From positions 1 through 64,000 of the forward strand of contig JANXAL010000025.1 in assembly GCA_025062325.1 (NCBI GenBank): DNA of 64,000 nt, read 5' to 3'. The DNA comes from Roseiflexus sp. (lineage in GTDB: Bacteria > Chloroflexota > Chloroflexia > Chloroflexales > Roseiflexaceae). The position numbers were made by a program, and so were the translations under genes. Under the pieces are notes generated by a model. That model was not told the origin of the DNA. It made no database searches and saw only the letters and a program-made list of their open reading frames with translations. Each line of letters opens with the position of its first letter. Position 1 is the first letter of the stretch. Positions 32,230-45,457 of this stretch are shown here, one piece after another.

Positions 32230-32241
32230 GTGGTTACGACA

Positions 32242-32550
32242 ATGATGTACAGTTGGCTACAACAGTACAACGTGCATCAAGGCGTGAAACACCCTCGTTT
32301 TCGTCTGAACCCCGCATTCCCGGATCTGATCGCTCGCGCCGGTTTATCACAGCGTGCATTTGCGCAGCGTGCGGGTGTCAGTCTTTCGACCATCGCAGGA
32401 CTGATCCATCCCAGGCCGCATCTTGGGCGTCGGGGGAGCATGCAACGGCGCACTGCGTGGTTGCTTGCCAGGGCATATGCTGAAGTAACAGGCATCGGCA
32501 TTGATGATGCGTTCCGGTTACTGATTTGTGAGCAAGTGGACAAGGAATGA
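32242..32550 (+). CDS. Small helix-turn-helix (XRE-like) protein
   Basis: About 102 aa. A Cro/XRE-type HTH is visible: FPDLIARAGLSQRAFAQRAG followed by VSLSTIAGLIHPRP, with Gln/Arg at the recognition-helix positions usual for the family. The start could be GTG 32230 or ATG 32242/32245. It lies 86 nt before the helicase gene on the same strand and is the likely transcriptional controller of the island (inference from position). Confidence 0.75.
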   Translation: MMYSWLQQYNVHQGVKHPRFRLNPAFPDLIARAGLSQRAFAQRAGVSLSTIAGLIHPRPHLGRRGSMQRRTAWLLARAYAEVTGIGIDDAFRLLICEQVDKE

Positions 32551-32636
32551 GCTCTCACCTTCGCTGAGATTATCGCAGGCTTTTATGCGCGAGATCGTTG
32601 CAGCTGCGCGTGTACTCTCAATAAGGAAGACCTGCA

Positions 32637-35012
32637 ATGTATACGACAACCTCCCCATCCTTTATCAGCATTGACGCATTTATGAGTATAGTTGCGCAAC
32701 AGCTTGGCAAAACGCTGAACCTCGAGCAACAACGGGCTGTTGAAGCAGACAGCGACGAGTCGCTCTTCCTGGTTGCGGGACCGGGAAGCGGCAAGACGAC
32801 GGTGCTCACATTGCGCGTTCTGAAGTTGATCTTTGTTGACGGCATCGAACCGGACGCCATTCTGGCGACCACCTTCACGCGCCGCGCAGCCGCCGAGCTG
32901 CGGTCGCGCATTCTGGGATGGGGCGACCAGATTCGCCATGGGCTGCTCACAAACGCTTCCCCGGCACAACGTGCATGGTTGCGGAAACTGGATCTCAATC
33001 AGACCCTGACCGGCACGCTCGATAGCCTGGCTGAACAGGTGCTGCGCGACTTCCGCGGCGCGGGCATGCAGCCGCCGGTGGTGCTCGATGAGTTCATTGC
33101 ACGCGCGCTCATGTTTCGCGAGGGGGTCCTCGGCACGGGAGCATATGGTAATCAGGCGCTGAAGGATTATCTTGCACGCCTGTGTCGTGATAGATATATG
33201 TCTGTCCAGTCCATGGGAGCAATTGTCAGCGAAATCAGGCAGCGCATCATCCACGACCGCGTGGACCGGGCGCAGTTTCGCGCCAGTCAACCGCCCCAGG
33301 TCGATAATCTGTTTCAGATCATCGACGCCTATGAGCAGAAACTGCGCGAAAAACTGGCGCTGGACTTCGCTATGCTCGAACAGCAGTTTCTGGAACGGTT
33401 GCAGTCCGGCGCCCTGAGTCGCTTTACCGAACGGTTGTGCGCCGTGCTGGTTGATGAATATCAGGATACCAATCTGCTGCAGGAGTCAATCTACTTCGAG
33501 ATGGCAAAAGCCGTCCGGCAGCGCAACGGCGGAATCACAGCGGTCGGCGACGATGATCAGTCGCTCTACCGCTTCCGCGGCGCAACCGTGGACCTGTTTA
33601 AGGATTTTGTTCCACGATTGAGAAGCGCGACCGGGATTGCAGCAACAACGATCTATTTGAACTCGAATTACCGTTCAACAGCGAACATCATTGACTACGC
33701 AGAGAAGTATCTTCGCCACGATCCGCCGTATAGCGGGGCGCGCGTCGCCGGGAAACCGCCGCTCCGGGTTGGACGGACGGGCGGGATCAATGTTCCCATC
33801 CTGGCAATGTTTCGGCCCGACCTGCCGATCCTCGCACGCGATCTCGCCGCCTTTATTGCCGATGTCGCCAGGGAGGGGCGCGTGATCGTCACTCCGACAG
33901 GGCAGAGATTGACTATTCGCGTCGATCCCTCTGCTGGCTCTGTCGGAGACATCGCGCTACTCTGCAGCTCACCCCGCGAGTACAGTTCGAGCGGCAGAGC
34001 GCGTTTACCGCTGCTCATCCGCCAGGAGCTGGAGCAGACGCATCGCATCCCGGTCTTCAATCCGCGCGGCCAGGAGTTCAGTGAAATTGAGTGCGTGCAG
34101 CAACTGTGCGGTCTGATGCTGGAGTGTATCGACCCTGGCGGGGCGCTGCAGCAGAACCTGGTTCCCAGGCGCATTCCAGACGACATCAGCGACAAAATGA
34201 ATGCCTGGCGAGCCGTAGCGCGCACCTTCATCGCCAGCAATCCGCCGGGACCAGGAACGGTTCGCGCCGGTCGCTCCCACTCACTGGGAGACTTCGTAAG
34301 CGCCTGGCAGCGCCGCAGTCCACAGGAGAGGAGCAGAACCTGGCCCGAAGAGGTCCCGCTCATTGACCTGCTGTACAAACTTCTGACCTGGATTCCGAAA
34401 ATGCAGGAGGACCCTGAAGGTCTGGTCTATCTTGAAGCCATTACCCGGACGATCACGCAGTCAGCCTATTTCAGCCCGTTCGATGCCGCCATTCGGCGCG
34501 ATCCGCCCTTTGCGCAGCGCTCGGTAGAGGCAGCGATCCGCGACATCTTTGCGCCGCTGGCTGCGGGTGAGATTGATATCGATGAAGACTTGCTGGAAAC
34601 GATTCCGCGCGATCGCCTGAACATTCTTTCAATCCATCAGTCTAAAGGACTGGAGTTTCCTCTGGTGATCGTTGATGTCGGCAGCGATTTCAGAACAGAA
34701 CACTATACGCAGCGCTTCCGTCGCTTTCCTGACGCCCCAGGGCGCGCGCCTGCGCTGGAAGATGGATTACGCCCCTCTTCGCCTCTCGGCGCGCCTGCGC
34801 GTTCGGGATTGGATCGGGCGTTTGATGATCTGATCCGGCTCTACTTCGTCGCCTTCAGTCGCCCTCAAGATGTGCTGCTGCTCGTCGGTCTGGGCGATCC
34901 AAGACGCGGACCAAACCGAACGATTCCGAACATCGCACTTGGGTGGCGCCGACAGGATCCTTCACCCGGCGGCATGCGCTGGCCGTTGACTAGAGAGATC
35001 GTCTATCTGTAG
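32637..35012 (+). CDS. UvrD/Rep-family superfamily 1 helicase
   Basis: 791-aa DNA helicase; start behind AAGGAAGACCTGCA. All SF1A motifs are visible: Q-motif LNLEQQRAV (27-35), Walker A AGPGSGKTTVL (47-57), Ia ATTFTRRAAAELRSR, II VDEYQDTN (271-278), III AVGDDDQSLYRFRGA (301-315), IV NYRST, V SIHQSKGLEFPLVIVD and VI RLYFVAFSRPQDVLLL. There is no fused nuclease domain; the RecB-type nuclease gene comes 18 nt later, so the two probably form an AddAB-like helicase-nuclease. Part of the putative Dpd-like island. Confidence 0.95.
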   Translation: MYTTTSPSFISIDAFMSIVAQQLGKTLNLEQQRAVEADSDESLFLVAGPGSGKTTVLTLRVLKLIFVDGIEPDAILATTFTRRAAAELRSRILGWGDQIRHGLLTNASPAQRAWLRKLDLNQTLTGTLDSLAEQVLRDFRGAGMQPPVVLDEFIARALMFREGVLGTGAYGNQALKDYLARLCRDRYMSVQSMGAIVSEIRQRIIHDRVDRAQFRASQPPQVDNLFQIIDAYEQKLREKLALDFAMLEQQFLERLQSGALSRFTERLCAVLVDEYQDTNLLQESIYFEMAKAVRQRNGGITAVGDDDQSLYRFRGATVDLFKDFVPRLRSATGIAATTIYLNSNYRSTANIIDYAEKYLRHDPPYSGARVAGKPPLRVGRTGGINVPILAMFRPDLPILARDLAAFIADVAREGRVIVTPTGQRLTIRVDPSAGSVGDIALLCSSPREYSSSGRARLPLLIRQELEQTHRIPVFNPRGQEFSEIECVQQLCGLMLECIDPGGALQQNLVPRRIPDDISDKMNAWRAVARTFIASNPPGPGTVRAGRSHSLGDFVSAWQRRSPQERSRTWPEEVPLIDLLYKLLTWIPKMQEDPEGLVYLEAITRTITQSAYFSPFDAAIRRDPPFAQRSVEAAIRDIFAPLAAGEIDIDEDLLETIPRDRLNILSIHQSKGLEFPLVIVDVGSDFRTEHYTQRFRRFPDAPGRAPALEDGLRPSSPLGAPARSGLDRAFDDLIRLYFVAFSRPQDVLLLVGLGDPRRGPNRTIPNIALGWRRQDPSPGGMRWPLTREIVYL

Positions 35013-35030
35013 CGGAGTAAGGAGGTCACG

Positions 35031-36209
35031 ATGACCCTCTCAACGCGCCCCGAACCGTATATCATCCCCTCCTATAGCCTGGTCGGCGATCTACTCTCGT
35101 ACCTGAACTGCGGACGGCAGTACCGCTACCATCAGCGTGGGGCGCTGCCGCCTTCCAAACCGGTGCAACTCTGGTTCGGTCAGTTCATTCACGGGGTCAT
35201 GGAGGAAGCGTACCGGCGCTGGAATGAGCAGCGCACCACGCGGCTGAACGGCGGCAGCGCCGGACCGTTGCTCACGTTTCCCTGGGATGATGCAACGCTG
35301 GAAAGCCTGGAGCAAGAAATAATTGGCCGCCTGGCAGCTCAGGGTCTGGTCTACAGCAACAAGAGCATGCTTGAACTATCACGCAAACGTGCGCGTATCA
35401 TGATCAATGAAATCGGGCGCGATCTCTTTCCGCTGATTGATGCGGCTGAGGTGCGGTTGCAGGGGATCAGACCGATGCCGCAACTCAAAGGCGCGCCTGC
35501 GCGTTCAAACTATTACGAAGTCACCGGCGTGGTCGATGTGCTCTCAACGCTTCATCTGGCAAAGGCCGATCCGGGGAATCGCATCTTGCAGGCGTTGATG
35601 CGCAACCCAACAGTGCAGCAGACCCTTGCTCGTCATCAAGCGAACAACGGGAGCGAGTTCGAGATAATTCTCGATTACAAGGGCATGCGGCGGCCACCGC
35701 TGCCTGAAGATGCGCTCGGACGCTTCGAGTGGCAGATCCAGACCTACACCTGGCTCCGTGCGCAGCAGACGAATGCGCGTCCTGTCCTGGCAGGCGTCCT
35801 GATCTTTGTCAACGAACTCGAACCCAGTCGCACCGATATGGAAGCGCTCTATGACGAGGTATACGAACTGCCAGGCGGTCCTGTCACCGATGTTCCGCCT
35901 GCAGGCAAAGATGACATCGCATTGAGAAGGTGGCGAAAGAACAAGCAATCATTTCCGCAGCTCACCTTCGATTACCGCCTGCAACGCGCGTTGCATATCG
36001 TGCCAATTACAGACAGCACGATGCACGCCAGTTTGAGCAGGTTTGATGCCGTCGTGGCAGAGATCGAAGCCTCGGTGAACAAAGAAAAATTCGGGAAAGG
36101 CATTTCCGCCAGCTGGAAAGCGACGCCCAAACGGAACAATTGTACCGTGTGCGACTTCAGGCACTTCTGCGATAAATCCGACGTTCAGGGTCTACCTCTG
36201 GCGCCGTAG
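35031..36209 (+). CDS. RecB/Cas4/AddB-like PD-(D/E)XK nuclease with Fe-S cysteines
   Basis: 392 aa. Nuclease core: H54 in GQFIHGVMEEAYRRW, D169 in TGVVDVLS, the D215-Y-K217 catalytic pair in IILDYKG and the QxxxY motif (WQIQTYTW). Four cysteines are placed as in AddB and Cas4: C27 near the N-terminus and C371-x2-C374-x5-C380 at the C-terminus (CTVCDFRHFC), expected to hold a 4Fe-4S cluster that clamps the domain. Between helicase and unknown gene, same operon (gaps 18 and 12 nt). Confidence 0.93.
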   Translation: MTLSTRPEPYIIPSYSLVGDLLSYLNCGRQYRYHQRGALPPSKPVQLWFGQFIHGVMEEAYRRWNEQRTTRLNGGSAGPLLTFPWDDATLESLEQEIIGRLAAQGLVYSNKSMLELSRKRARIMINEIGRDLFPLIDAAEVRLQGIRPMPQLKGAPARSNYYEVTGVVDVLSTLHLAKADPGNRILQALMRNPTVQQTLARHQANNGSEFEIILDYKGMRRPPLPEDALGRFEWQIQTYTWLRAQQTNARPVLAGVLIFVNELEPSRTDMEALYDEVYELPGGPVTDVPPAGKDDIALRRWRKNKQSFPQLTFDYRLQRALHIVPITDSTMHASLSRFDAVVAEIEASVNKEKFGKGISASWKATPKRNNCTVCDFRHFCDKSDVQGLPLAP

Positions 36210-36221
36210 GGTGATGCGCAT

Positions 36222-37334
36222 ATGCCTGTGCTTCGACAGCGCAAAGATGGCGATTTCTACGTCCGTGCGTGGGTGCCGGGCACATCGTCGGTTGCTACCT
36301 GGCAATTGACACGGCGCGGACTGGAGATATTGCGACAGCGCAGGTACTCTGCGGATGGAGATAAATTTGCGCGAGATCTGCTGCAGCAACTCATCAGCCA
36401 GAGACACGCCTTCACGCATGGCTCTGGTCTGACGCCAGCACTGGTTCAACCAGAGGCGTTCATCACGCGCGACACGGCGGCATCGAACCGGCAGTTGCAC
36501 ACCTCCATGCTGGTGTTCAACCGGCACGAGACCGGCTGGCGGCTGGCTCTTCGTATTGACGAAATTCCCCGCCGATGGTGCGATACGGTCGACAATCTGG
36601 TTGCTGCTCTTTCAGGCTGGTGCATTGTGGTGGACGGCGCGCACTCCATCCCGGCGATGCGCCTCTACCCCGGACGGGGCGGCGCAATCGTGGATGTGCC
36701 GCCGAAAACCGGCTTCTACACGCTCACCCCGCAGGGCGACTGGCCCAAACAGTGGGATGTGCGCCATTGGCTGGTTGGCACGACTGGTCTGGCGCCTGTT
36801 ACCGTGTTCGATGCGGATACCGGTGAGCGACGGCAACCCCGTGAGCCTCTGGCGCCTGGCGAGCGCTACATCCTGGTGGTTGAAAGCGATCGCCTGGCGC
36901 CGCCGCCGGATGACCTTCAACCGGTTGACCTGGGGATTGTTGATCGATGGCGTGCGTGGGATATTCAGGTTCCTGAAACACCTTCCAGTCGCATCGAACG
37001 CTGGTGCGAGCACGCCGGGTTGCGACTGGCTAAGCGACGCTTCCGGCTGACGCTGGTCACGCCGCCCTATGCCTGCACAGACGATGGGCGTCCGATAGTG
37101 ATCCGCGACGAAGAGATTATCTGCGCGCTCACGCCAATTGGAGAACCTTCTCCGACAGAACCGACGTTCTACGTTCTGCACTGCGCTGTCGCCATCGGCG
37201 TCTACCCCGCACTGCTGAACGCGGCGCCGCCGGCATTCAGTCATCCGCTGCAAAAGCGCGGCGTTCTTTTGAGAGATTATATTGTCACACGTGACTTGCC
37301 GCTGGCGTATGCGAAAGTATCAGCCTCTCTCTGA
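36222..37334 (+). CDS. Unknown protein of the Dpd-like island (370 aa)
   Basis: I do not recognise a family. Soluble, no membrane segment or signal peptide. The N-terminal 70 residues are basic and helical (RRGLEILRQRRYSADGDKFA). The middle looks beta-rich with repeated Gly/Pro turns (DGAHSIPAMRLYPGRGGAIV, then PGERYILVVESD), and two Trp-rich spots (RWCDTV and DRWRAWDIQVP). It lies 12 nt after the nuclease gene and 8 nt before the next gene, so it is very likely a component of the same system. It could be the recognition or scaffold subunit; this is a guess from position. Confidence 0.8.
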   Translation: MPVLRQRKDGDFYVRAWVPGTSSVATWQLTRRGLEILRQRRYSADGDKFARDLLQQLISQRHAFTHGSGLTPALVQPEAFITRDTAASNRQLHTSMLVFNRHETGWRLALRIDEIPRRWCDTVDNLVAALSGWCIVVDGAHSIPAMRLYPGRGGAIVDVPPKTGFYTLTPQGDWPKQWDVRHWLVGTTGLAPVTVFDADTGERRQPREPLAPGERYILVVESDRLAPPPDDLQPVDLGIVDRWRAWDIQVPETPSSRIERWCEHAGLRLAKRRFRLTLVTPPYACTDDGRPIVIRDEEIICALTPIGEPSPTEPTFYVLHCAVAIGVYPALLNAAPPAFSHPLQKRGVLLRDYIVTRDLPLAYAKVSASL

Positions 37335-37342
37335 GAGTCTGA

Positions 37343-38173
37343 GTGAATGAAAGGGCGCTGCCAGGGATGGCTTCCTCCAATCGTTTGCTGATCAGCCATA
37401 TCACGCTGCGCGGGCGCGAACTGAAGCAACTCTACGAGCAGATTGCCGCATGCCCCGGCATCTCATTTGCGGATCTCGTCGTCGCGCTCACTCCTGAGCA
37501 GCCGGAGACGTTCGGATTAGCAGACACAACGTTGCGGGAAGCGCTCAACTTCCTGCTGATTGCCAGCATGGTCAAGCAGGAGGGCGCAGAACGCCGACGC
37601 GCATCGTTTTACCCGACGCCACAGCTGGTAGACGCTCCCTTTGCGCTGCTCCTTCTTCACCACATCCAGACTCATCCCGACCGACGCCAGCAGGCGCTGG
37701 CGCTCATCCAGCGTCTGCTGGCGGCTGAAGACATCCTGGCGCTGGCGCCAGCGCAGGTGCGGGAACGGATGGAGCGAAGCCCGATAGGGTCGCTCTTTGC
37801 CTGGACAGGCGAAAAAGTCAGGTTTTGGGGGAGCCTGGCTCACTATCTGGGAGTAGTGCGATGGTTTGGAAATAACACCGACATACTGCTCGTCCCTCAG
37901 CCATATCTGCTGTTCCAGGCGTTGGAGTGGATTGTGCGCGGGAACGAGACAGACGAACATCATTTGAGGCGGGTTTTGGATGATATTGATTGCCGCTTTT
38001 TCGCCTGCTATACCACACAAAAGCGGGTTCATCAGGGGGTAGTTCAGTCGCTGCTGGCGCTCGAACGCATGGGAAGTGTGCACTTGAGCCATAGAGCGGA
38101 CGCTGCCAGCTCACTGTTGCTGAACGAGCGGCGCATCAGCCACTTCCGACTGTGTCGAAGGATAATGATATGA
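37343..38173 (+). CDS. Unknown island protein, DpdG-like by size and position
   Basis: 276 aa (GTG start; ATG at 37367 is an alternative). N-terminal half shows a winged-helix-like pattern: GISFADLVVALTPEQPETFG then DTTLREALNFLLIASMVKQE followed by a short hairpin (RRRASFYPT). The rest is helical. In Dpd systems a protein of about this size (DpdG) precedes the large ATPase DpdH; the similarity claimed here is of order and length, not a demonstrated alignment. Overlaps the ATPase start (ATGA). Confidence 0.75.
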   Translation: MNERALPGMASSNRLLISHITLRGRELKQLYEQIAACPGISFADLVVALTPEQPETFGLADTTLREALNFLLIASMVKQEGAERRRASFYPTPQLVDAPFALLLLHHIQTHPDRRQQALALIQRLLAAEDILALAPAQVRERMERSPIGSLFAWTGEKVRFWGSLAHYLGVVRWFGNNTDILLVPQPYLLFQALEWIVRGNETDEHHLRRVLDDIDCRFFACYTTQKRVHQGVVQSLLALERMGSVHLSHRADAASSLLLNERRISHFRLCRRIMI

Positions 38174-40998
38174 AGTATCCGCGCACCTGGAACAACGAGC
38201 GTGTGTTACAGGTTCTGACGACGGAGAGTCGTCAGAAAGAACGAGACCTTTTTATGCGCACCCATCGACCATTCATGCAGATTCGCGTCGATTTCTGCAA
38301 AGAGAAGGGGATACAAAATACGTTCATTGATGAAGATCAGCTACGAGAATTGGTACAGAACAGTTCACTGAATGCACATAATCGCCTTTTCTTTGTGGTT
38401 GGCGAGGCTGGCAGCGGAAAAAGCGAACTATGCCAGTGGCTTGAGTATACCGTTGATGAACGTCGTGTTCTTCCCTTCCATATTCCACGAAGTATGACGA
38501 CGGCAACTGGCGTTGCAGCACTCCTCAGGCAACAATCAAAGGGTTTCATCCCAAAGACGCTATCGAAGACGCCGATAACGGTTCAGGTTCGTCACATTAT
38601 ATCATCAGCAATTATTATCCTCTACGAGGACAGAAGTTCTGTTTTTCCGCCTGAAGAACATTGGGTGCGCCTGATAGAAAGCCATGAGATGCACCAGATG
38701 ATCGAAGTATACCTCCAAAATATCTTGGATGGCGCAAAAACATTTGAATTACTCGCCGATGAAGATGAAATCCGGCGTATACTTAATAAATACAATCTCT
38801 GCTCGTTAATCGAAGATATTTCAAGAAAAAAGGGACTTCTCCGCGAAATCCTTGAGCAAGCTATAGAACAAACATTTTGGCTGGGGGATATCCGGTTAGT
38901 TCTCGATGACATCTCTCGCCACCTCATCCTTCAGAACCGACGACCGTTACTGCTGATTGAAGACATAACCGGTTTCCAGACTCTGAGCGGAAAGCTGCTC
39001 GATTATCTTTTTGATCTCTCGACTGGGCATTTCGACGCGGTTATCGGCGTAACCAGCGGTTTTGAGAGCACACGACTGATTGATTCAGTCAGTGCGAGTG
39101 ATCTGACAGGCGTTCACCATCGTCTGAAAGGACGCTTCGTACTAACCGACGATCACGGCTGCTCGTATGGACTCGAAGATGGTCTGATCGAACTGACGCG
39201 AGCGTACCTGGACGCAGTCAGGGCTGATTATTCTCAGGCTGTGCAGGAACCTTTGTTCTCCGCGTTCAGTCAGGGACTGTATCCATTTACAGAAACTGCA
39301 CTGCGACGCGTTTTCTCCAGCTTGTACGAGGATGGAATTCCGCGTCGAACTCCTCGCCTGTTTCTCGAGCACGTGCTTGCCGCGGCGCTGCTTGCAGAGA
39401 CTCCGCCTTATCTCACATTTGATCGCTCGAGGTACATCAAGGCGCCGCCTCTGTTGTTTCGCACCGATGACGTTCCCGATCCGCATCTTCAGAGCCTGCT
39501 GCGTTGGTACGGCGAGATAGATGACGATTTCATTACGCTCGATGCGCGCATTGCCGACGTATGGGGCGTTCACCTGCCGGAACATGCCTATCGTGAGGGA
39601 GTGTACCGGATCCCTCGCGCATATGCTGGTCCGGCGCCTGACATTGCTAGCAACAGCGCCTGGCAGCAAGAATTGTCTGAACTCCAGAGCTGGCTCAATA
39701 AGGGCGGCATGTATCCCAGTCGCGAGGTGCTCAAACGCGGGATAGAACGTGTGGTGCGTTTGTTCGGTGATCCGCGATCGCTCGGCAATCCTGACGCCGC
39801 CGGTGGCGCATCTATCGTCTATGCGCGCGGCGATGAGCGCCTCCCTATCTCTCTGGGTCGCAACAGCGGCGACCAACCATCCACATCGACCTATATCAAG
39901 CTCAAGATTGCGTGCTCACCTGACGAACGCGGCATTCTTGAGGAACTCGCCTATCTGGCATTGAGCGGTAAAGACCTGCTGCAGGCCTGTCGAAACGTTG
40001 CGCTCACGCTCGAATGGGCGCAGCAGCGCTGGCGAGAATATCATCTGGAGGTCCGGGATCTGTTTGCACGTCATCTGCATGGTATAACGGTTGAACAGTT
40101 CATCTGGACATCGTGGCGATTGATCTGCGGATTGTGCGGCATGCCCTGGGATAGACGACCCCATCTCAAGTCCTGCGATGTGGGCAATATTCCGTATGAT
40201 CGGGTAACTCCCTGGTCGCCTGAACGCCATGGAGCGTGTTACGCCGCTGGCAAGGAGTTCCTGAGATACTCCGATGTCGTGCGCCAGTTGTTCATCGGAA
40301 CGTTTGCGCTCCATGCATCGGTGCTGGACGTTGAAGCGTGTACAGCGGCACAACAAAGCGCCGCGTCTTTGGACGTCATAGATCGACTGGCACGTGTATC
40401 CATCAATGCGTGGCGTAAGTTACCCTTCAGAATTCGCCCAACAGGGCAGAATCTTTCCGATCTGCTCATTCCCCTGCAACGTTATGCGCACGCTCTCAAG
40501 CAACTCAATGTTCAGGTTGCGTACACTGCCGACCTGCTTGATCTCAGGCAAAAGGAACGCCATCTTGCGGCACAAGAACCCTTCGATCACTCCCTGCTCC
40601 AGCGCCATCTTGCGACTTTGCGTCAGCAATGCGGTGAAATTGGGCTGACCTGGCGGCAGCAGTGGGATGAAGCGCTCGATACGCTCAGATCAGTCACCGG
40701 AGAACAATTGATTAATCTACGCCGGGAAATCCAGCGGCTATGCGCTAGCGTTGAAGCGCGGAGCAAGGAAATAACGGACGATATATGGCAATATCAGCAG
40801 TTTCGTTGCCATCTACGCCCGATTATTGATCATCCCTATTGGTTAGCCGTCGCCACTGTGCAAACAATCCAAAGCGATCTGCTCTCAGCCGCTTATACGC
40901 GTTATCGGCGACGAGGCGGCTCGATAACGAACACACGCCAGTATCGGCAGCTGAAAGAAACTATTCGCAATGTCTGGAGTGAAATAACCGATGACTGA
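38170..40998 (+). CDS. Large P-loop ATPase of the island (DpdH/DptF-like)
   Basis: 942 aa; start at the ATGA overlap with the preceding gene (a GTG at 38152 is possible). Walker A FFVVGEAGSGKSELCQWL (residues about 75-91) and Walker B RPLLLIEDITGFQ (258-270) define an AAA/STAND-like ATPase near the N-terminus. The remaining about 650 residues are mostly helical, with a Cys/His-poor middle and a coiled-coil C-terminus. Architecture resembles large ATPases of DNA-modification-dependent restriction (DpdH, DptF). Base composition of the first kilobase is more A/T-rich than neighbours, suggesting transfer. Confidence 0.85.
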   Translation: MKYPRTWNNERVLQVLTTESRQKERDLFMRTHRPFMQIRVDFCKEKGIQNTFIDEDQLRELVQNSSLNAHNRLFFVVGEAGSGKSELCQWLEYTVDERRVLPFHIPRSMTTATGVAALLRQQSKGFIPKTLSKTPITVQVRHIISSAIIILYEDRSSVFPPEEHWVRLIESHEMHQMIEVYLQNILDGAKTFELLADEDEIRRILNKYNLCSLIEDISRKKGLLREILEQAIEQTFWLGDIRLVLDDISRHLILQNRRPLLLIEDITGFQTLSGKLLDYLFDLSTGHFDAVIGVTSGFESTRLIDSVSASDLTGVHHRLKGRFVLTDDHGCSYGLEDGLIELTRAYLDAVRADYSQAVQEPLFSAFSQGLYPFTETALRRVFSSLYEDGIPRRTPRLFLEHVLAAALLAETPPYLTFDRSRYIKAPPLLFRTDDVPDPHLQSLLRWYGEIDDDFITLDARIADVWGVHLPEHAYREGVYRIPRAYAGPAPDIASNSAWQQELSELQSWLNKGGMYPSREVLKRGIERVVRLFGDPRSLGNPDAAGGASIVYARGDERLPISLGRNSGDQPSTSTYIKLKIACSPDERGILEELAYLALSGKDLLQACRNVALTLEWAQQRWREYHLEVRDLFARHLHGITVEQFIWTSWRLICGLCGMPWDRRPHLKSCDVGNIPYDRVTPWSPERHGACYAAGKEFLRYSDVVRQLFIGTFALHASVLDVEACTAAQQSAASLDVIDRLARVSINAWRKLPFRIRPTGQNLSDLLIPLQRYAHALKQLNVQVAYTADLLDLRQKERHLAAQEPFDHSLLQRHLATLRQQCGEIGLTWRQQWDEALDTLRSVTGEQLINLRREIQRLCASVEARSKEITDDIWQYQQFRCHLRPIIDHPYWLAVATVQTIQSDLLSAAYTRYRRRGGSITNTRQYRQLKETIRNVWSEITDD

Positions 40999-41539
40999 AA
41001 AATCAATCATATCTCTGCTTTCAGAAACATGCACGACGCTTGATCATCTGAAAATGCACGATGCTCACGCCGAATCATATGAACGCGCTCAAGAACGGAC
41101 CGCGCTCGTTCTGCAGGCTGCTCAGCGATTACATGCGGCATTGCAACGCCTGAGAGCCGCTTCGCTTCTGCTGAAGGTCGTGGCGCCAGACTGCCATCTT
41201 GCGTCTCTCTGGTCAAGAACCTGCACTGATCTGCAGAAGGGAATGCCGCGCGATTTTCGGGCGCCGGCAGCGGCGATCGTTGAAGGTCATCTTGACCTGC
41301 TGCGATTGATTGAGTATACTGCCTGCTCAGCTGCGGTTGCAGAAGAACGAGGTGATCAGATCGCTGATCATCTTGCACGACTTATGCAAGAGAGCAGTCG
41401 TGACGACGGAGCGCATCCTTCTGCGGTCTATCGGGCGTGGATTGAAGAAGCGCTTAGCGATCTGGTGCGGAAGAAAAATGCAGACGATGCACACGACATG
41501 TGGCAGATGCTGCTCAGGCGATGTGGTGAAGCGCCCTGA
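40991..41539 (+). CDS. Unknown helical island protein
   Basis: 182 aa, overlapping the ATPase gene by 8 nt, so translationally coupled to it. Almost entirely helical with heptad-like leucine/alanine spacing (YERAQERTALVLQAAQRLHA then ALQRLRAASLLLKV). No known motif. It is the last gene of the rightward cluster, ending 27 nt before the converging TGT-like gene. By position it may correspond to DpdI-type small subunits, or be a partner of the ATPase coiled coil. Confidence 0.75.
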   Translation: MTEKSIISLLSETCTTLDHLKMHDAHAESYERAQERTALVLQAAQRLHAALQRLRAASLLLKVVAPDCHLASLWSRTCTDLQKGMPRDFRAPAAAIVEGHLDLLRLIEYTACSAAVAEERGDQIADHLARLMQESSRDDGAHPSAVYRAWIEEALSDLVRKKNADDAHDMWQMLLRRCGEAP

Positions 41540-41566
41540 AACTCTGCTTGAGACGCATGGAACGCA

Positions 41567-42481
41567 CTATGCCGGATCGTTATCGGAAGCGATGGCGGCG
41601 AGCTCCTGATAGAGATGATAGCAATTATGGATGGCTCTCAGGCGAACATAGGATTTTCCTTCAGGGTTTAGCAGACGCGAGCTGTCTTCTCGGCAGACCG
41701 GGCAATCGCAAGGCAAGGGTTGAGTCAGAATCTCGGCGAAGGTGTAATTTCGTCGCCACTCGCTGAAGTGCGGACTCGCAAGTTTGTATCGCCGAAGGGG
41801 GTTGCTGTAGAACAATCCTCCGCGCCAGGCTTCCTGCGCCGGTGCGCTCGAGTCGGCGGATGCGACGCCGAGGCGCGCGAGTTTCGTCAGCACCTCCACT
41901 GAACTGACGCCGAAGATGTGCAGATTGGCGCCGACCGCTTCGAGCGCCGCTTCGACACGACGATAGAATTCATCGCGGTTTGCAGTGACCAGGCGGGCAA
42001 GCGATCCAAGCGCGAATGATGAATATCCCATATCAGCAAGTACTCGCGCTGCATTGTAGATGGTAGAAACATCGTATCCCTGAATAACCCCGACAATCTG
42101 GACATTGGCAGGAAGAGAAATGGTGGCGAGGCGACTGATCAGCCATCGCGCGTTTTCAAGATTATGAACAACCCGTCGTTCCAATTCTCCGAGCGTTTTG
42201 GCGCCGAAGAGAGGAACATCGAGATGGCAGAGACGAATTGGAATGGTGAGAGACATAATCATTTCGCACTGCCGTTCCCAGACGCGGAGGGGCGTCAGCC
42301 ACGGCGCCTTTTGGGCAGGCTGGTAAGCGCCGCTGTCGATCATCAAACTGCTTGGCAGAGATGGCCAGTCACGCGCTCTCCAGGAGCGACTGACATTTGG
42401 CGGACTGACCAGCACGCGGACGTAAGGCAGATAGTGTTGATAAATCGGGTCACTGTTTGTCCATGCTACGTAGTATTGCAT
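41567..42481 (-). CDS. TGT-fold protein, second (short) DpdA-like paralogue
   Basis: 304 aa. It keeps the landmarks of tRNA-guanine transglycosylases: substrate-site Asp in MIDSGAYQ (D49), GVIQG (131-135), the glycine-rich FALGSLARL, nucleophile-position Asp in GVASADSSA (D210), and zinc ligands C258-x-C260-x2-C263 with H285. The tRNA-binding features of housekeeping TGT are absent, and it is short. It would be expected to exchange guanine for a 7-deazaguanine base, probably in DNA given its neighbours. Divergent from the longer DpdA-like gene across a 34-nt spacer. Confidence 0.85.
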   Translation of the reverse strand: MQYYVAWTNSDPIYQHYLPYVRVLVSPPNVSRSWRARDWPSLPSSLMIDSGAYQPAQKAPWLTPLRVWERQCEMIMSLTIPIRLCHLDVPLFGAKTLGELERRVVHNLENARWLISRLATISLPANVQIVGVIQGYDVSTIYNAARVLADMGYSSFALGSLARLVTANRDEFYRRVEAALEAVGANLHIFGVSSVEVLTKLARLGVASADSSAPAQEAWRGGLFYSNPLRRYKLASPHFSEWRRNYTFAEILTQPLPCDCPVCREDSSRLLNPEGKSYVRLRAIHNCYHLYQELAAIASDNDPA

Positions 42482-42515
42482 AGGCGTCGTTCATTTCTGT
42501 AAAAAGACTCAGTAG
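42482..42515. promoter_or_regulatory. Short divergent spacer between the two TGT-like genes
   Basis: Only 34 nt separate the two opposing start codons. That is too short for two independent promoters, so at least one promoter must lie inside the other gene's 5' end, or the two are co-regulated through one site. No clear -10 was identified. Confidence 0.4.
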
Positions 42516-43796
42516 ATGTCGCTCATATATTTTATCCCCGACTGGGATGACCGGGTTGATCCGAATTACGACTTTATTAACGACACGCATTCACCTGATC
42601 GAGATCCATACCATAGCGATTATTACGCCCATCAAATCTATAATGAACCTCCATATGACGGCATTCTCGTGTCCAGGGCGGTCATCGACCGTCAACCGTC
42701 CAAATTAGAACTCATCCGGGATATTGGTTCAATAAAACGATACCTCCGACTTCCAGAAAGTCATACCGTTCTTGGCGACTGCGGCGCTTTTTCGTATTGG
42801 AGAGAAGAGAACCCTCCTTATAAGAACGAAGAGATGCTTGAATTCTATCAGAGGCTCGGCTTTGATTTCGGCGTCTCAGTTGATCATCTTATCTTTGCTG
42901 GGTTAGACCATGACAAAGAACGCCGCTGGAACATAACGATGGAGAATGCTGAAGTGTTTATCAAGCGTCATCGTGCAGGAAGATATACGTTCACACCGAT
43001 TGGAGTAGTCCAGGGTTGGGATCCAGAGTCGTATCGCCGTGGGGCTCGCCAGCTTATCAAGATGGGATATCGTTACATAGCAATTGGCGGGTTGGTCAGA
43101 AGCGCGACGAAAGACATCATCCGGATTTTGTCTGCAATTCAAGAAGAACTGTCTCCAGGGATTCGCGTTCATTTGTTTGGTGTTAACAGACCCGAATACG
43201 TTCATGTGTTTGCTCAGTTGGGAGTAACCAGCTTTGACAGCGCTTCACGTTTACGCCGCGCCTGGATTGACGGCGAGAGAAACTACTTTCTTGGGGATGA
43301 TGCCTACACTGCAATTCGCGTCCCATATTCTTCAAAAATGACAGGGAAATCACCATCCAACGAAAAAGAACTGCAGAAGATGGAAAAAGACGCTCTCACC
43401 AGGTTAAGGGATTATGATCGAGGAATTGTCTCAATAAACCAGGTATTTGAAAGTATTGTCGCATATACCGAACTTTCAGGCAAAATGAGTTCAAGAATGA
43501 GACGGGAATACTGGAGAACTCTCCAGGAAGAGCCATGGAAGCGTTGTCCTTGCGCTATATGTCGATCAATTGGCGTTGAAGTGATTATCTTTCGCGGAAA
43601 CAACAGAAATCGCCGCCGCGGTTTTCATAACACCTGGCAGCTCTATCAGAACATCAAATCCAACTCTGCCTCCGCACCTTCGTGTGATCTCACTCGATAC
43701 GAAGCACTGCTCGCACCTCCCCAACCACTGCCTCCGCCTTCGCCCGATACGCGGCGCGCAGCGCCTCCCCGTGGGGAAGCGGACGGTCGAGGATGA
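42516..43796 (+). CDS. dpdA: DpdA-like DNA 7-deazaguanine transglycosylase
   Basis: 426 aa. N-terminus FIPDWDDRVDPNYDF and YNEPPYDGILVSR match what I recall of DpdA, which inserts preQ0 into DNA guanine positions. Catalytic landmarks: D88 in LGDCGAFSYW, GVVQGWDP (163-170), YIAIGGLVRS, nucleophile-position D241 in TSFDSASRLRRAW, zinc ligands C344-x-C346-x2-C349 and H371. The gene is A/T-rich. The last about 35 residues (Pro/Arg-rich) are encoded on the antisense strand of the HAD gene end, so the natural C-terminus is probably near residue 390. The product needs a preQ0-type precursor; no such synthesis genes are in view. Confidence 0.88.
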   Translation: MSLIYFIPDWDDRVDPNYDFINDTHSPDRDPYHSDYYAHQIYNEPPYDGILVSRAVIDRQPSKLELIRDIGSIKRYLRLPESHTVLGDCGAFSYWREENPPYKNEEMLEFYQRLGFDFGVSVDHLIFAGLDHDKERRWNITMENAEVFIKRHRAGRYTFTPIGVVQGWDPESYRRGARQLIKMGYRYIAIGGLVRSATKDIIRILSAIQEELSPGIRVHLFGVNRPEYVHVFAQLGVTSFDSASRLRRAWIDGERNYFLGDDAYTAIRVPYSSKMTGKSPSNEKELQKMEKDALTRLRDYDRGIVSINQVFESIVAYTELSGKMSSRMRREYWRTLQEEPWKRCPCAICRSIGVEVIIFRGNNRNRRRGFHNTWQLYQNIKSNSASAPSCDLTRYEALLAPPQPLPPPSPDTRRAAPPRGEADGRG

Positions 43797-44550
43797 ACGG
43801 GAACGTCCGTACCGGCGCGCCGAAAACGCTGCGGATGACATCGATAGTCAGCGCCTGCCGGCGCTGGACCTTCACCGGATCGGCGTAGAAATCGAGCAGG
43901 TTCTCATTCGCGCCAAAGTCATCAACGACCAGAACCTCCTGCGGTTGCTCGACAAGACCTGCCTGTACGCAGCGCCAGAAGTGTGCGCTGTCTTTGCGCG
44001 CGCCGAGATCGGCTGAGTTGGCGATCAGGACCGTGCGTGCGCACGGAGGGTCGCTGGCTGGCGTCGAGATGGTCTGCAGTGATGTTGTGCCAGCGTCATC
44101 AACGCGCAACGCCGCTGCGCGCCATCCCATCGCCGCAATCTGGCGCCCAATGTGGTCGGTGGCTTCGGCGTAGTGGTCGGTAGCCACGAGGGGCGTCACG
44201 CATTCTGCCAATTGCAGCGCGTCGAAGAGCGGGCGCCACGCTGGATCGATGACCGATGCCTGGAGGTATGCCTGCACGAACTGTTCAGCGCACTGGAGAA
44301 CGTCATCGGCGGGCAGGCGCGACGCCGGTATGAATTGCGCGATCAGGTGCGCATACGGCGTGCGTGTCGTGCTGCCGGTTTCCCAGGTCGGCTTCACGAT
44401 GTCGTTCCAGTAGCGTTCGACATCCACTCCCAGGTCCCACAGACCACTCTGCCGCAGCGCCTGCTCCAGGCGGTCCGGCATGCCGAAGCGCACTGCTTCC
44501 AGGCTCAACATTCCCGAAAAATCCAGCACCAGCAGTCGCTGTGTCATCAT
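43690..44550 (-). CDS. HAD-superfamily hydrolase
   Basis: 286 aa; start at the ATGA overlap with tenA. Motif I is LVLDFSGML (nucleophile Asp, with Ser at +2 in place of the general-acid Asp), and the late acidic motif is VLVVDDFGANEN. An Arg/Lys-rich loop and cap region occupy about residues 20-130. In plants a TenA-HAD fusion dephosphorylates thiamin monophosphate, so this pair may do the same chemistry (inference from the fusion). Its last about 107 nt are overlapped antisense by the DpdA-like frame. Confidence 0.85.
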   Translation of the reverse strand: MMTQRLLVLDFSGMLSLEAVRFGMPDRLEQALRQSGLWDLGVDVERYWNDIVKPTWETGSTTRTPYAHLIAQFIPASRLPADDVLQCAEQFVQAYLQASVIDPAWRPLFDALQLAECVTPLVATDHYAEATDHIGRQIAAMGWRAAALRVDDAGTTSLQTISTPASDPPCARTVLIANSADLGARKDSAHFWRCVQAGLVEQPQEVLVVDDFGANENLLDFYADPVKVQRRQALTIDVIRSVFGAPVRTFPFILDRPLPHGEALRAAYRAKAEAVVGEVRAVLRIE

Positions 44551-45200
44551 GGCATCCACTGCTCAAGCCAGTAGGCGCTGTCCCAGAACATCCACTCCAA
44601 CCGCGAAGAATACACAAAAGCGTCGCGCATACGGGCTTTCTGCGCTTCGGAAGCATGATCAGCGATCACATCGGTCAGTGCGATGGCGCGATCAACCCAA
44701 CCGCTGAACTCCTGCCCGGCATAGGTGTCGATCCACTTCTGGTATGGGTTATTCGGCGCTGCGCGGCGGTAGATGTCATTCCCGACTTCGCGGTAGATCC
44801 AGAAGCAGGGAAGCAGGGCGGCCATGCCCTCTTCATAACTGCGACAGGCGGCGGTTGCCAGCAGGAAGTTGGTGTAGGCGAAGCAGGAGGGCGACTGCTG
44901 ACGCGTCGGCGCATCGATGCCGAACTCGCGGAAGTAGGTATGGTGCAGCATGCGCTCGACCACTGCCACTCCCTCGGCGAAGCGCACAAACTGGATGATC
45001 GCCTCCTCATCGTAGGCGCGCCCTGCCATTATCGCTAGCGCACGCGCAAAATCCGCCAAGTACAGGGCGTCCTGCTGCATGTAGAAGGCGAACTTCTCGC
45101 GCGGCAGTGTTCCTTGCGCCAGTTCCTCGTTGAACGGGTGGCGAATGATAGCCTGGTAGATGTCGGTGATTGACGACCAGAGCGTTTCAGTAAAGCGCAT
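44547..45200 (-). CDS. tenA: TenA-family thiaminase II
   Basis: 217 aa; start at ATG 45200 behind AGGGAGAAA. Typical TenA: FYMQQDALYLADFARALA near the active site, Cys in TAACRSYEEGMAALLPCFWIY (catalytic-region Cys) and the C-terminal SSRLEWMFWDSAYWLEQW. It recovers pyrimidine from degraded thiamin. A TPP riboswitch lies in its leader, and the HAD gene overlaps its stop, forming a two-gene thiamin-salvage operon. Confidence 0.95.
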   Translation of the reverse strand: MRFTETLWSSITDIYQAIIRHPFNEELAQGTLPREKFAFYMQQDALYLADFARALAIMAGRAYDEEAIIQFVRFAEGVAVVERMLHHTYFREFGIDAPTRQQSPSCFAYTNFLLATAACRSYEEGMAALLPCFWIYREVGNDIYRRAAPNNPYQKWIDTYAGQEFSGWVDRAIALTDVIADHASEAQKARMRDAFVYSSRLEWMFWDSAYWLEQWMP

Positions 45201-45368
45201 AACAATTTCTCCCTGACAGTGCACGACTGTATACGCCTGCGTATGTACTGCGCACGCGGGCGCGTATCGAACGTTTCCGCACGGGGTACGCAAACGCAGC
45301 AATCAGAGAGGTAGTGCACCGTGAAAGAGGAAGGGAGTTGGCAGCAGCGAACGTCAGCGCTCGTTCCG

Positions 45369-45457
45369 ATTTCCTACGCCGGCATTACCCGGATCAGGTG
45401 CAAAGGGTATCTTCTCAGCCTCGCCGCATGCGCGAAGCGCCCCTACGGAACATCCTG
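45369..45457 (-). ncRNA. TPP riboswitch (THI element)
   Basis: Minus-strand sequence carries the THI box parts in order: GGGGCGC, GGCTGAGAAGATACCC, TTTGCACCTGATCCGGGTAA and TGCCGGCGTAGGAA. It lies between a strong promoter and tenA, about 170 nt upstream of the start. It should repress tenA-HAD expression when thiamin pyrophosphate is plentiful. Confidence 0.97.

Follow-up and report, generated by a model that had tools for sequence, protein, structure and literature searches.

A probable Dpd-family island of a DpdB-less subtype, with a UvrD–nuclease pair and a predicted Druantia deletion scar, in Roseiflexus

Can an island that encodes two TGT-fold proteins next to a UvrD helicase and a PD-(D/E)XK nuclease mark and restrict DNA, and if so, to which family of systems does it belong? 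The question is raised by a stretch of 64,000 nucleotides (nt) from Roseiflexus sp. (GCA_025062325.1, contig JANXAL010000025.1, positions 1-64,000, forward strand; hereafter the window), whose host genome (G000; 4.7 Mb, 143 contigs, 97% complete) belongs to the Roseiflexus group of the Chloroflexota. DpdA-type TGTs insert preQ0 into DNA, DpdC converts dPreQ0 to dADG, and other dpd genes restrict unmodified DNA. An initial annotation of the window had proposed a variant Dpd-type island of nine genes, and nine intact, closely packed open reading frames (ORFs) are indeed present at 32230-43796 in the places claimed, the P-loop ATPase being 948 amino acids (AA) long from a GTG start rather than 942. 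From the sequence, these are predicted to include a DpdA, a catalytic-looking second TGT (TGT2), divergent DpdG and DpdH proteins, a helical protein, a UvrD helicase, a PD-(D/E)XK nuclease and a Druantia scar. We infer that the island modifies and restricts DNA, and that it probably represents a DpdB-less subtype of the Dpd family of self-marking and restriction islands, in which DpdA plus TGT2 replace DpdA plus DpdB and the UvrD–nuclease pair serves restriction.

Identification of the island as Dpd-type, as first proposed, is carried by DpdA, which scored 457.4 bits against the NCBIfam DpdA model (cut-off 200), and by the DpdG and DpdH homologues described below. TGT2 reached 71 bits with the same model, under the cut-off. 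In a tree of TGT proteins, whose long branches leave the deep joins unsure, DpdA formed one group (94) and most tRNA-type TGTs of these genomes a second one (99), while TGT2 fell outside both. Both catalytic aspartates are kept in all TGT2s, and the zinc site (CxCxxC and a histidine) in all except the cyanobacterial ones; the TGT2 of the window retains the complete set. Strong TGT2 matches (>450 bits) occurred in 4 of 400 Chloroflexota genomes, each time adjoining divergent DpdG and DpdH genes (L013/L019, L016/L071, L074 and the window). Viral contigs searched for DpdA and phages searched for TGT2 yielded none.

DpdB is a DndB/ParB-like ATPase partner of DpdA. It was found neither in the island nor in any of the ten carrier genomes searched, the window's own included. 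Among the 20 best DpdA-bearing plasmid records, all read and scanned with local profiles, 12 had only DpdB, 6 only a second TGT and 2 neither, while none had both; if rows are assumed to be independent, the chance of no overlap is 7e-4. Within the cyanobacteria, closely related DpdA fusions carry either DpdB (L110, L113) or TGT2 (L086, L097). Since the two never share a record and DpdB is absent from the carrier genomes, TGT2 appears to stand in for DpdB. A branch with a second TGT in this place could offer a clean test, by partner swap, of what directs DpdA to DNA and why it needs DpdB. On many alphaproteobacterial plasmids, two DpdB-like genes flank dpdA (L087 17800-21232, L088, L115-L117, L119-L121, L123).

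Two further members of the island had been listed as unknowns. Profile–profile comparison matched the 276-AA protein to classical DpdG (probability 94.5, E=8e-8) and the 948-AA ATPase to classical DpdH (probability 99.5, E=6.6e-23), with direct scores under the cut-offs of the respective models (12.7 bits, cut-off 80, for DpdG; 1.6e-20 and 73 bits, cut-off 450, for NCBIfam DpdH). The ATPase is thus assigned by profile to a subfamily homologous to DpdH (DpdH2), with orthologues of 46-49% identity in the Chloroflexales, and the smaller protein is termed DpdG2; its AlphaFold2 model (pLDDT 39) was not used. As both unknowns are recognizable by profile as divergent DpdG and DpdH homologues, the gene set is less minimal than thought. 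The 182-AA protein that follows (U182) has orthologues in four relatives and an all-helical AlphaFold2 model (pLDDT 80) without a significant fold match; BrxA (E 0.03, no fold match) was rejected as an identity, and so was the gene that follows dpdH in classical systems, to which profile comparison gave no match.

DpdG2–DpdH2 with TGT2 and DpdA form a recurring module. Scanning the genome collection with patterns from the DpdH2 alignment, which reach close relatives only, identified five loci, all in Chloroflexales. TGT2–DpdG2–DpdH2 also occurs on plasmids of Paenibacillus sp. 37 and Deinococcus taeanensis, and on haloarchaeal plasmids paired DEAD helicases are accompanied by DpdA, a second TGT and homologues of DpdG and DpdH. 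In relative G375, classical DpdF-G-H-J-K-D is followed by DpdG2–DpdH2 at the contig end, and in G328 a DpdA fused to a DpdC-like domain lies beside classical DpdF-G-H-J-K-D. The co-occurrence in other genomes to which the initial annotation had tied its proposal is therefore found.

The UvrD protein has intact Walker A, DEYQD and later motifs and shares 41-46% identity with the UvrD proteins encoded next to dpdA on three plasmids, and residues H54, D169, D215-Y-K217 and C27/C371/C374/C380 of the nuclease are invariant in four dpd-linked homologues. In AddB/Cas4-type nucleases such a four-cysteine set has an Fe–S cluster role, and a probable Fe–S site is predicted here. No full-length relative of the nuclease was found in 81 other Chloroflexales genomes; among 72,556 plasmids there were three close homologues, all with an adjoining UvrD and with dpdA 3-10 kb away, namely in Picosynechococcus PCC 73109 (DpdA fusion plus TGT2), Bradyrhizobium 41S5 and Rhizobium WYJ-E13 (both DpdB-DpdA-DpdB). 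Because all three lie within 10 kb of dpdA, for which a crude estimate of chance is ~1e-10, we do not regard the association as fortuitous, and by this gene-neighbourhood argument the pair is a recurrent Dpd partner that either adds to or replaces the customary helicases and PLD nuclease. The initial suggestion that it replaces the classical superfamily 2 (SF2) helicases and PLD protein thus holds insofar as the pair is a recurrent Dpd partner, although not one peculiar to this type.

More distant UvrD–nuclease pairs lie near dpdA in Scytonema and Halobaculum. On a Nostoc N6 plasmid (L111 17232-26720) a UvrD plus PD-(D/E)XK pair adjoins drmC/drmA of DISARM, and in G273 (Chloroflexota; L127 3529-7142) a distant pair stands on a 10-kb contig on which no dpd gene was recognized. 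DruB was considered for the gene that follows the nuclease gene on the plasmids, and was rejected for want of a match. Gabija was likewise dismissed, as the PADLOC GajB match of UvrD reflects the general UvrD fold and no GajA was found among the neighbours. A literature search that covered the core Dpd literature in part found no paper joining dpdA, UvrD and restriction. The pair may offer a simple two-protein form of Dpd restriction for biochemistry.

The 370-AA ORF had been taken for an independent gene of unknown function, and here the initial annotation has to be revised. Compared with G414 and G274 (Chloroflexales), it falls into two parts: residues 1-320 correspond to the N-terminus of a protein of 540-550 AA, and residues 320-367 to the final stretch of a helicase of 1800 AA that is encoded ~9 kb downstream in the same genomes. 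In G414 the former is DruB (weak PADLOC match, 6e-4) and the latter DruE, and the genes between them match DruC (3e-8) and DruD (6e-27); an Oscillochloris helicase (L022) homologous to this DruE has a DruE1 match of 1824 bits. The alignment sets the joint near residue 320 (first ~318 AA DruB, last ~47 AA DruE), from which it follows that an in-frame deletion has apparently removed ~9 kb of Druantia type I core sequence from the window. We conclude from these alignments that the ORF is a predicted deletion scar and not an independent gene family; the junction is known from one assembly. The gene order in G414 is DpdJ-like, TPR, DruB, DruC, DruD, DruE, a 143-AA ORF, DpdG2, DpdH2, U182, TGT2 (opposite strand) and DpdA, and in Oscillochloris L022 DruE directly precedes DpdG2-DpdH2-U182-TGT2-DpdA.

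To our knowledge, Druantia has not been linked to a 7-deazaguanine mark, and we know of no account of how it discriminates self from non-self; a link between its core and a TGT module that marks DNA would provide it with a testable self mark. A second Druantia–TGT association was observed in two other Chloroflexales (L125, G206:C92, 2073-17431; L126, G214:C205, 1734-18000). There, the gene for a highly diverged DpdA-like TGT, with 273-AA and 1233-AA genes after it, points away from an operon of Druantia type II/IV-like character, which in L125 includes DruE (~1575 bits), DruF and a DruL/DruF-like gene. Their sizes had suggested DpdG and DpdH for the two genes beside the G206 TGT, but profile comparison gave no support.

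With respect to the precursor, preQ0 genes are found close to the module in two relatives (G414 and G328), in Paenibacillus and in Halobaculum; in G414, DUF366, a YhhQ-family transporter and QueC stand ~6-8 kb downstream of DpdA. DUF366 adjoins a YhhQ-family transporter near the module both in G414 (L060 14609-18879; QueC present) and in Chloroflexales bacterium ZM16-3 (L019 19848-21244; no QueC found), and this neighbourhood suggests that DUF366 belongs to 7-deazaguanine metabolism. The host genome has two matches to YhhQ-family transporters.

Taken together, these observations are compatible with a mechanism in which DpdA would replace guanines of the host DNA by a 7-deazaguanine base, for which imported preQ0 is the simplest candidate given the missing QueC. 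TGT2 would fill the place of DpdB as the partner of DpdA, and the two TGTs might form a mixed dimer. The DpdH2 ATPase with DpdG2 might provide ATP-driven DNA handling, and the UvrD–nuclease pair could unwind and degrade unmarked incoming DNA in an AddAB-like manner. The ancestral locus would have carried the DruBCDE core ahead of dpdG; with most of it deleted, UvrD and the nuclease would be the sole remaining helicase–nuclease here. More broadly, and only tentatively, the marking module may serve interchangeable destroyers in the Chloroflexales (DpdF-J-K-D, Druantia BCDE or UvrD plus PD-(D/E)XK), with TGT2 having replaced DpdB as catalytic partner across a whole Dpd branch (Chloroflexota, Bacillota, Deinococcota, Cyanobacteriota and haloarchaea). 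If so, some Druantia systems would be restriction systems guided by 7-deazaguanine marks.

Several observations weigh against the proposed DpdB-less marking and restriction island. TGT2 is not one clade, falling into three lineages (bacterial, cyanobacterial and haloarchaeal) in the tree, and the count of mutual exclusion includes related rows (alphaproteobacteria, haloarchaea), which are not fully independent. The UvrD–nuclease pair is also present beside DpdA/DpdB (L087, L088), and a more distant one by DISARM (L111), so that it is not tied to TGT2. No full QueC was found in this genome or in any of six genus genomes searched (its own included), so that the system either depends on import of the base or is idle. 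The initial annotation had seen no DpdB, DpdC or preQ0-synthesis genes; this extends to the whole genome for DpdB and QueC, and for DpdC it holds among the window proteins, the genome beyond the island not having been searched for it. Sister islands have decayed in ZM16-3 (L019 9539-14349) and Oscillochloris ZM17-4 (L020 9156-15593), with truncated DpdG and DpdA fragments, one with a stop, and together with the 370-AA scar they indicate that such loci are being lost, leaving activity in this strain uncertain.

The scar, the missing QueC and the decayed sister copies could together mean that the island is a decaying remnant, which lost its Druantia restriction core by deletion, has no precursor supply and has ceased to mark or restrict DNA in this strain. 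We hold this to be unlikely, as the other eight frames are intact, both TGTs, UvrD and the nuclease retain their key motifs, a second metagenome-assembled genome (MAG) has the last five genes open and 99-100% identical, YhhQ-type transporter genes are present and a complete UvrD–nuclease pair is still there. Alternatively, the TGTs with DpdG and DpdH might be a modification-only module, downstream of an unrelated AddAB-like repair unit by chance. The lack of full-length nuclease relatives in the other Chloroflexales would agree with this, as would the more distant pairs found without Dpd (L111, L127), but the dpdA linkage of 3/3 close plasmid homologues and the 8-18 nt spacing of the co-directional genes here make it improbable. 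That both TGTs act on tRNA in the queuosine pathway is barely credible and was rejected: both match the general TGT family (Pfam TGT 5e-13 and 9e-14), but they reach only 28 (DpdA) and 25 bits with the tRNA-TGT equivalog model (cut-off 307), the neighbours are of defence type, and two TGTs of the tRNA type (C46, 469 bits; C119, 317 bits) are encoded elsewhere in the genome. These two genes (G000:C46 and G000:C119) belong to separate branches, and the genome that carries them lacks QueC. We accordingly retain a DpdB-less Dpd island as the preferred reading.

Table 1. Features of the island; positions refer to the window.
Feature	Position	Strand	Evidence
Small helix-turn-helix (HTH) protein, HTH_3-like	32230-32550	+	Pfam HTH_3 E=4e-4, below cut-off; 86 nt upstream of UvrD
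UvrD-family superfamily 1 (SF1) helicase, restriction candidate	32637-35012	+	Pfam UvrD-helicase 1.7e-46
PD-(D/E)XK nuclease, AddB/Cas4 type	35031-36209	+	Pfam PDDEXK_1 1.6e-11
Predicted DruB::DruE in-frame fusion ORF, 370 AA	36222-37334	+	~36222-37176 DruB-like; ~37188-37334 DruE C-terminus
Divergent DpdG (DpdG2), 276 AA	37343-38173	+	Profile–profile match; same position before dpdH in relatives
Divergent DpdH (DpdH2), P-loop ATPase, 948 AA from GTG start	38152-40998	+	NCBIfam and profile–profile matches
U182, 182-AA all-helical protein	40991-41539	+	Kept after DpdH2 in relatives
TGT2, second TGT-fold transglycosylase	41567-42481	-	Pfam TGT 5e-13; catalytic and zinc residues kept
DpdA, predicted DNA 7-deazaguanine transglycosylase	42516-43796	+	NCBIfam DpdA 457 bits; PADLOC DpdA 425 bits

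The operon-like packing described initially was confirmed by measurement, with 18, 12, 8, -22 and -8 nt between consecutive rightward genes from UvrD on (Table 1). TGT2 converges with U182 across 27 nt, and, as had also been noted, TGT2 and dpdA face apart, with 34 nt between their starts. The HTH protein is a possible regulator and its membership of the island is uncertain. A 99% identical copy of DpdG (from residue 93)-DpdH-U182-TGT2-DpdA in the independent MAG Roseiflexus sp. SKYG45 (L018) indicates that these five reading frames are real. GC content is ~57-61% across UvrD-DpdG and 48-56% across DpdH-DpdA, compared with 60-62% in the surroundings, and by this composition the island looks like a mosaic. 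Further downstream, an ordinary thiamine pyrophosphate (TPP) riboswitch (45353-45454, minus strand) lies upstream of a TENA/THI-4 gene (44547-45302, minus strand).

Among known systems, the island resembles classical Dpd (S. Montevideo type, dpdABC plus dpdD-K) in its DpdA, its DpdG and DpdH homologues, its defence-type setting and the preQ0 genes by the module in relatives. It differs by the second TGT, by UvrD plus PD-(D/E)XK in place of SF2 helicases plus PLD, and by the lack of DpdB, of a DpdC-like protein and of DpdD/E/F/J/K, which had no matches among the window proteins (DpdD is also absent from the genome). BREX-Related Capture (BRC) likewise pairs a TGT with a neighbouring NTPase and lacks DpdB and DpdC, with dPreQ0 proposed as the mark (PMC12839542), but was rejected, as its HerA/FtsK, PglZ, DUF6079 and DUF4007 were not found among the window proteins. 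With Druantia type I the window shares DruB and DruE remnants, and G414 has a full DruBCDE before dpdG, whereas in the window the core is deleted, no DruA was seen, and only the fusion represents DruB-E. AddAB/Cas4-type systems are similar in combining a UvrD helicase with a four-cysteine PD-(D/E)XK nuclease; here, however, UvrD scores 135 bits against an AddA cut-off of 708, and the nuclease is small, separate and dpd-linked. The nearest published hybrids are the BRIGADE systems, reported only from halophilic archaea, in which a nuclease of the PLD or PD-(D/E)XK type accompanies YprA-family helicases, usually two of them; the main text of their description contains neither 'TGT' nor 'DpdA' (PMC12458937). 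No YprA helicase was found among the window proteins beyond the DruE tail, and relative G414 has a DpdJ-like one and a DruE one. The island differs from BRIGADE in its bacterial (Chloroflexota) host and in a DpdA without a DpdC-like part. Haloarchaeal plasmid loci that fit the BRIGADE description have DpdA, a second TGT, DpdG/DpdH homologues and paired DEAD helicases, and one of them, in Halobaculum, also encodes a UvrD and a PD-(D/E)XK protein; a PD-(D/E)XK protein is present in the window as well.
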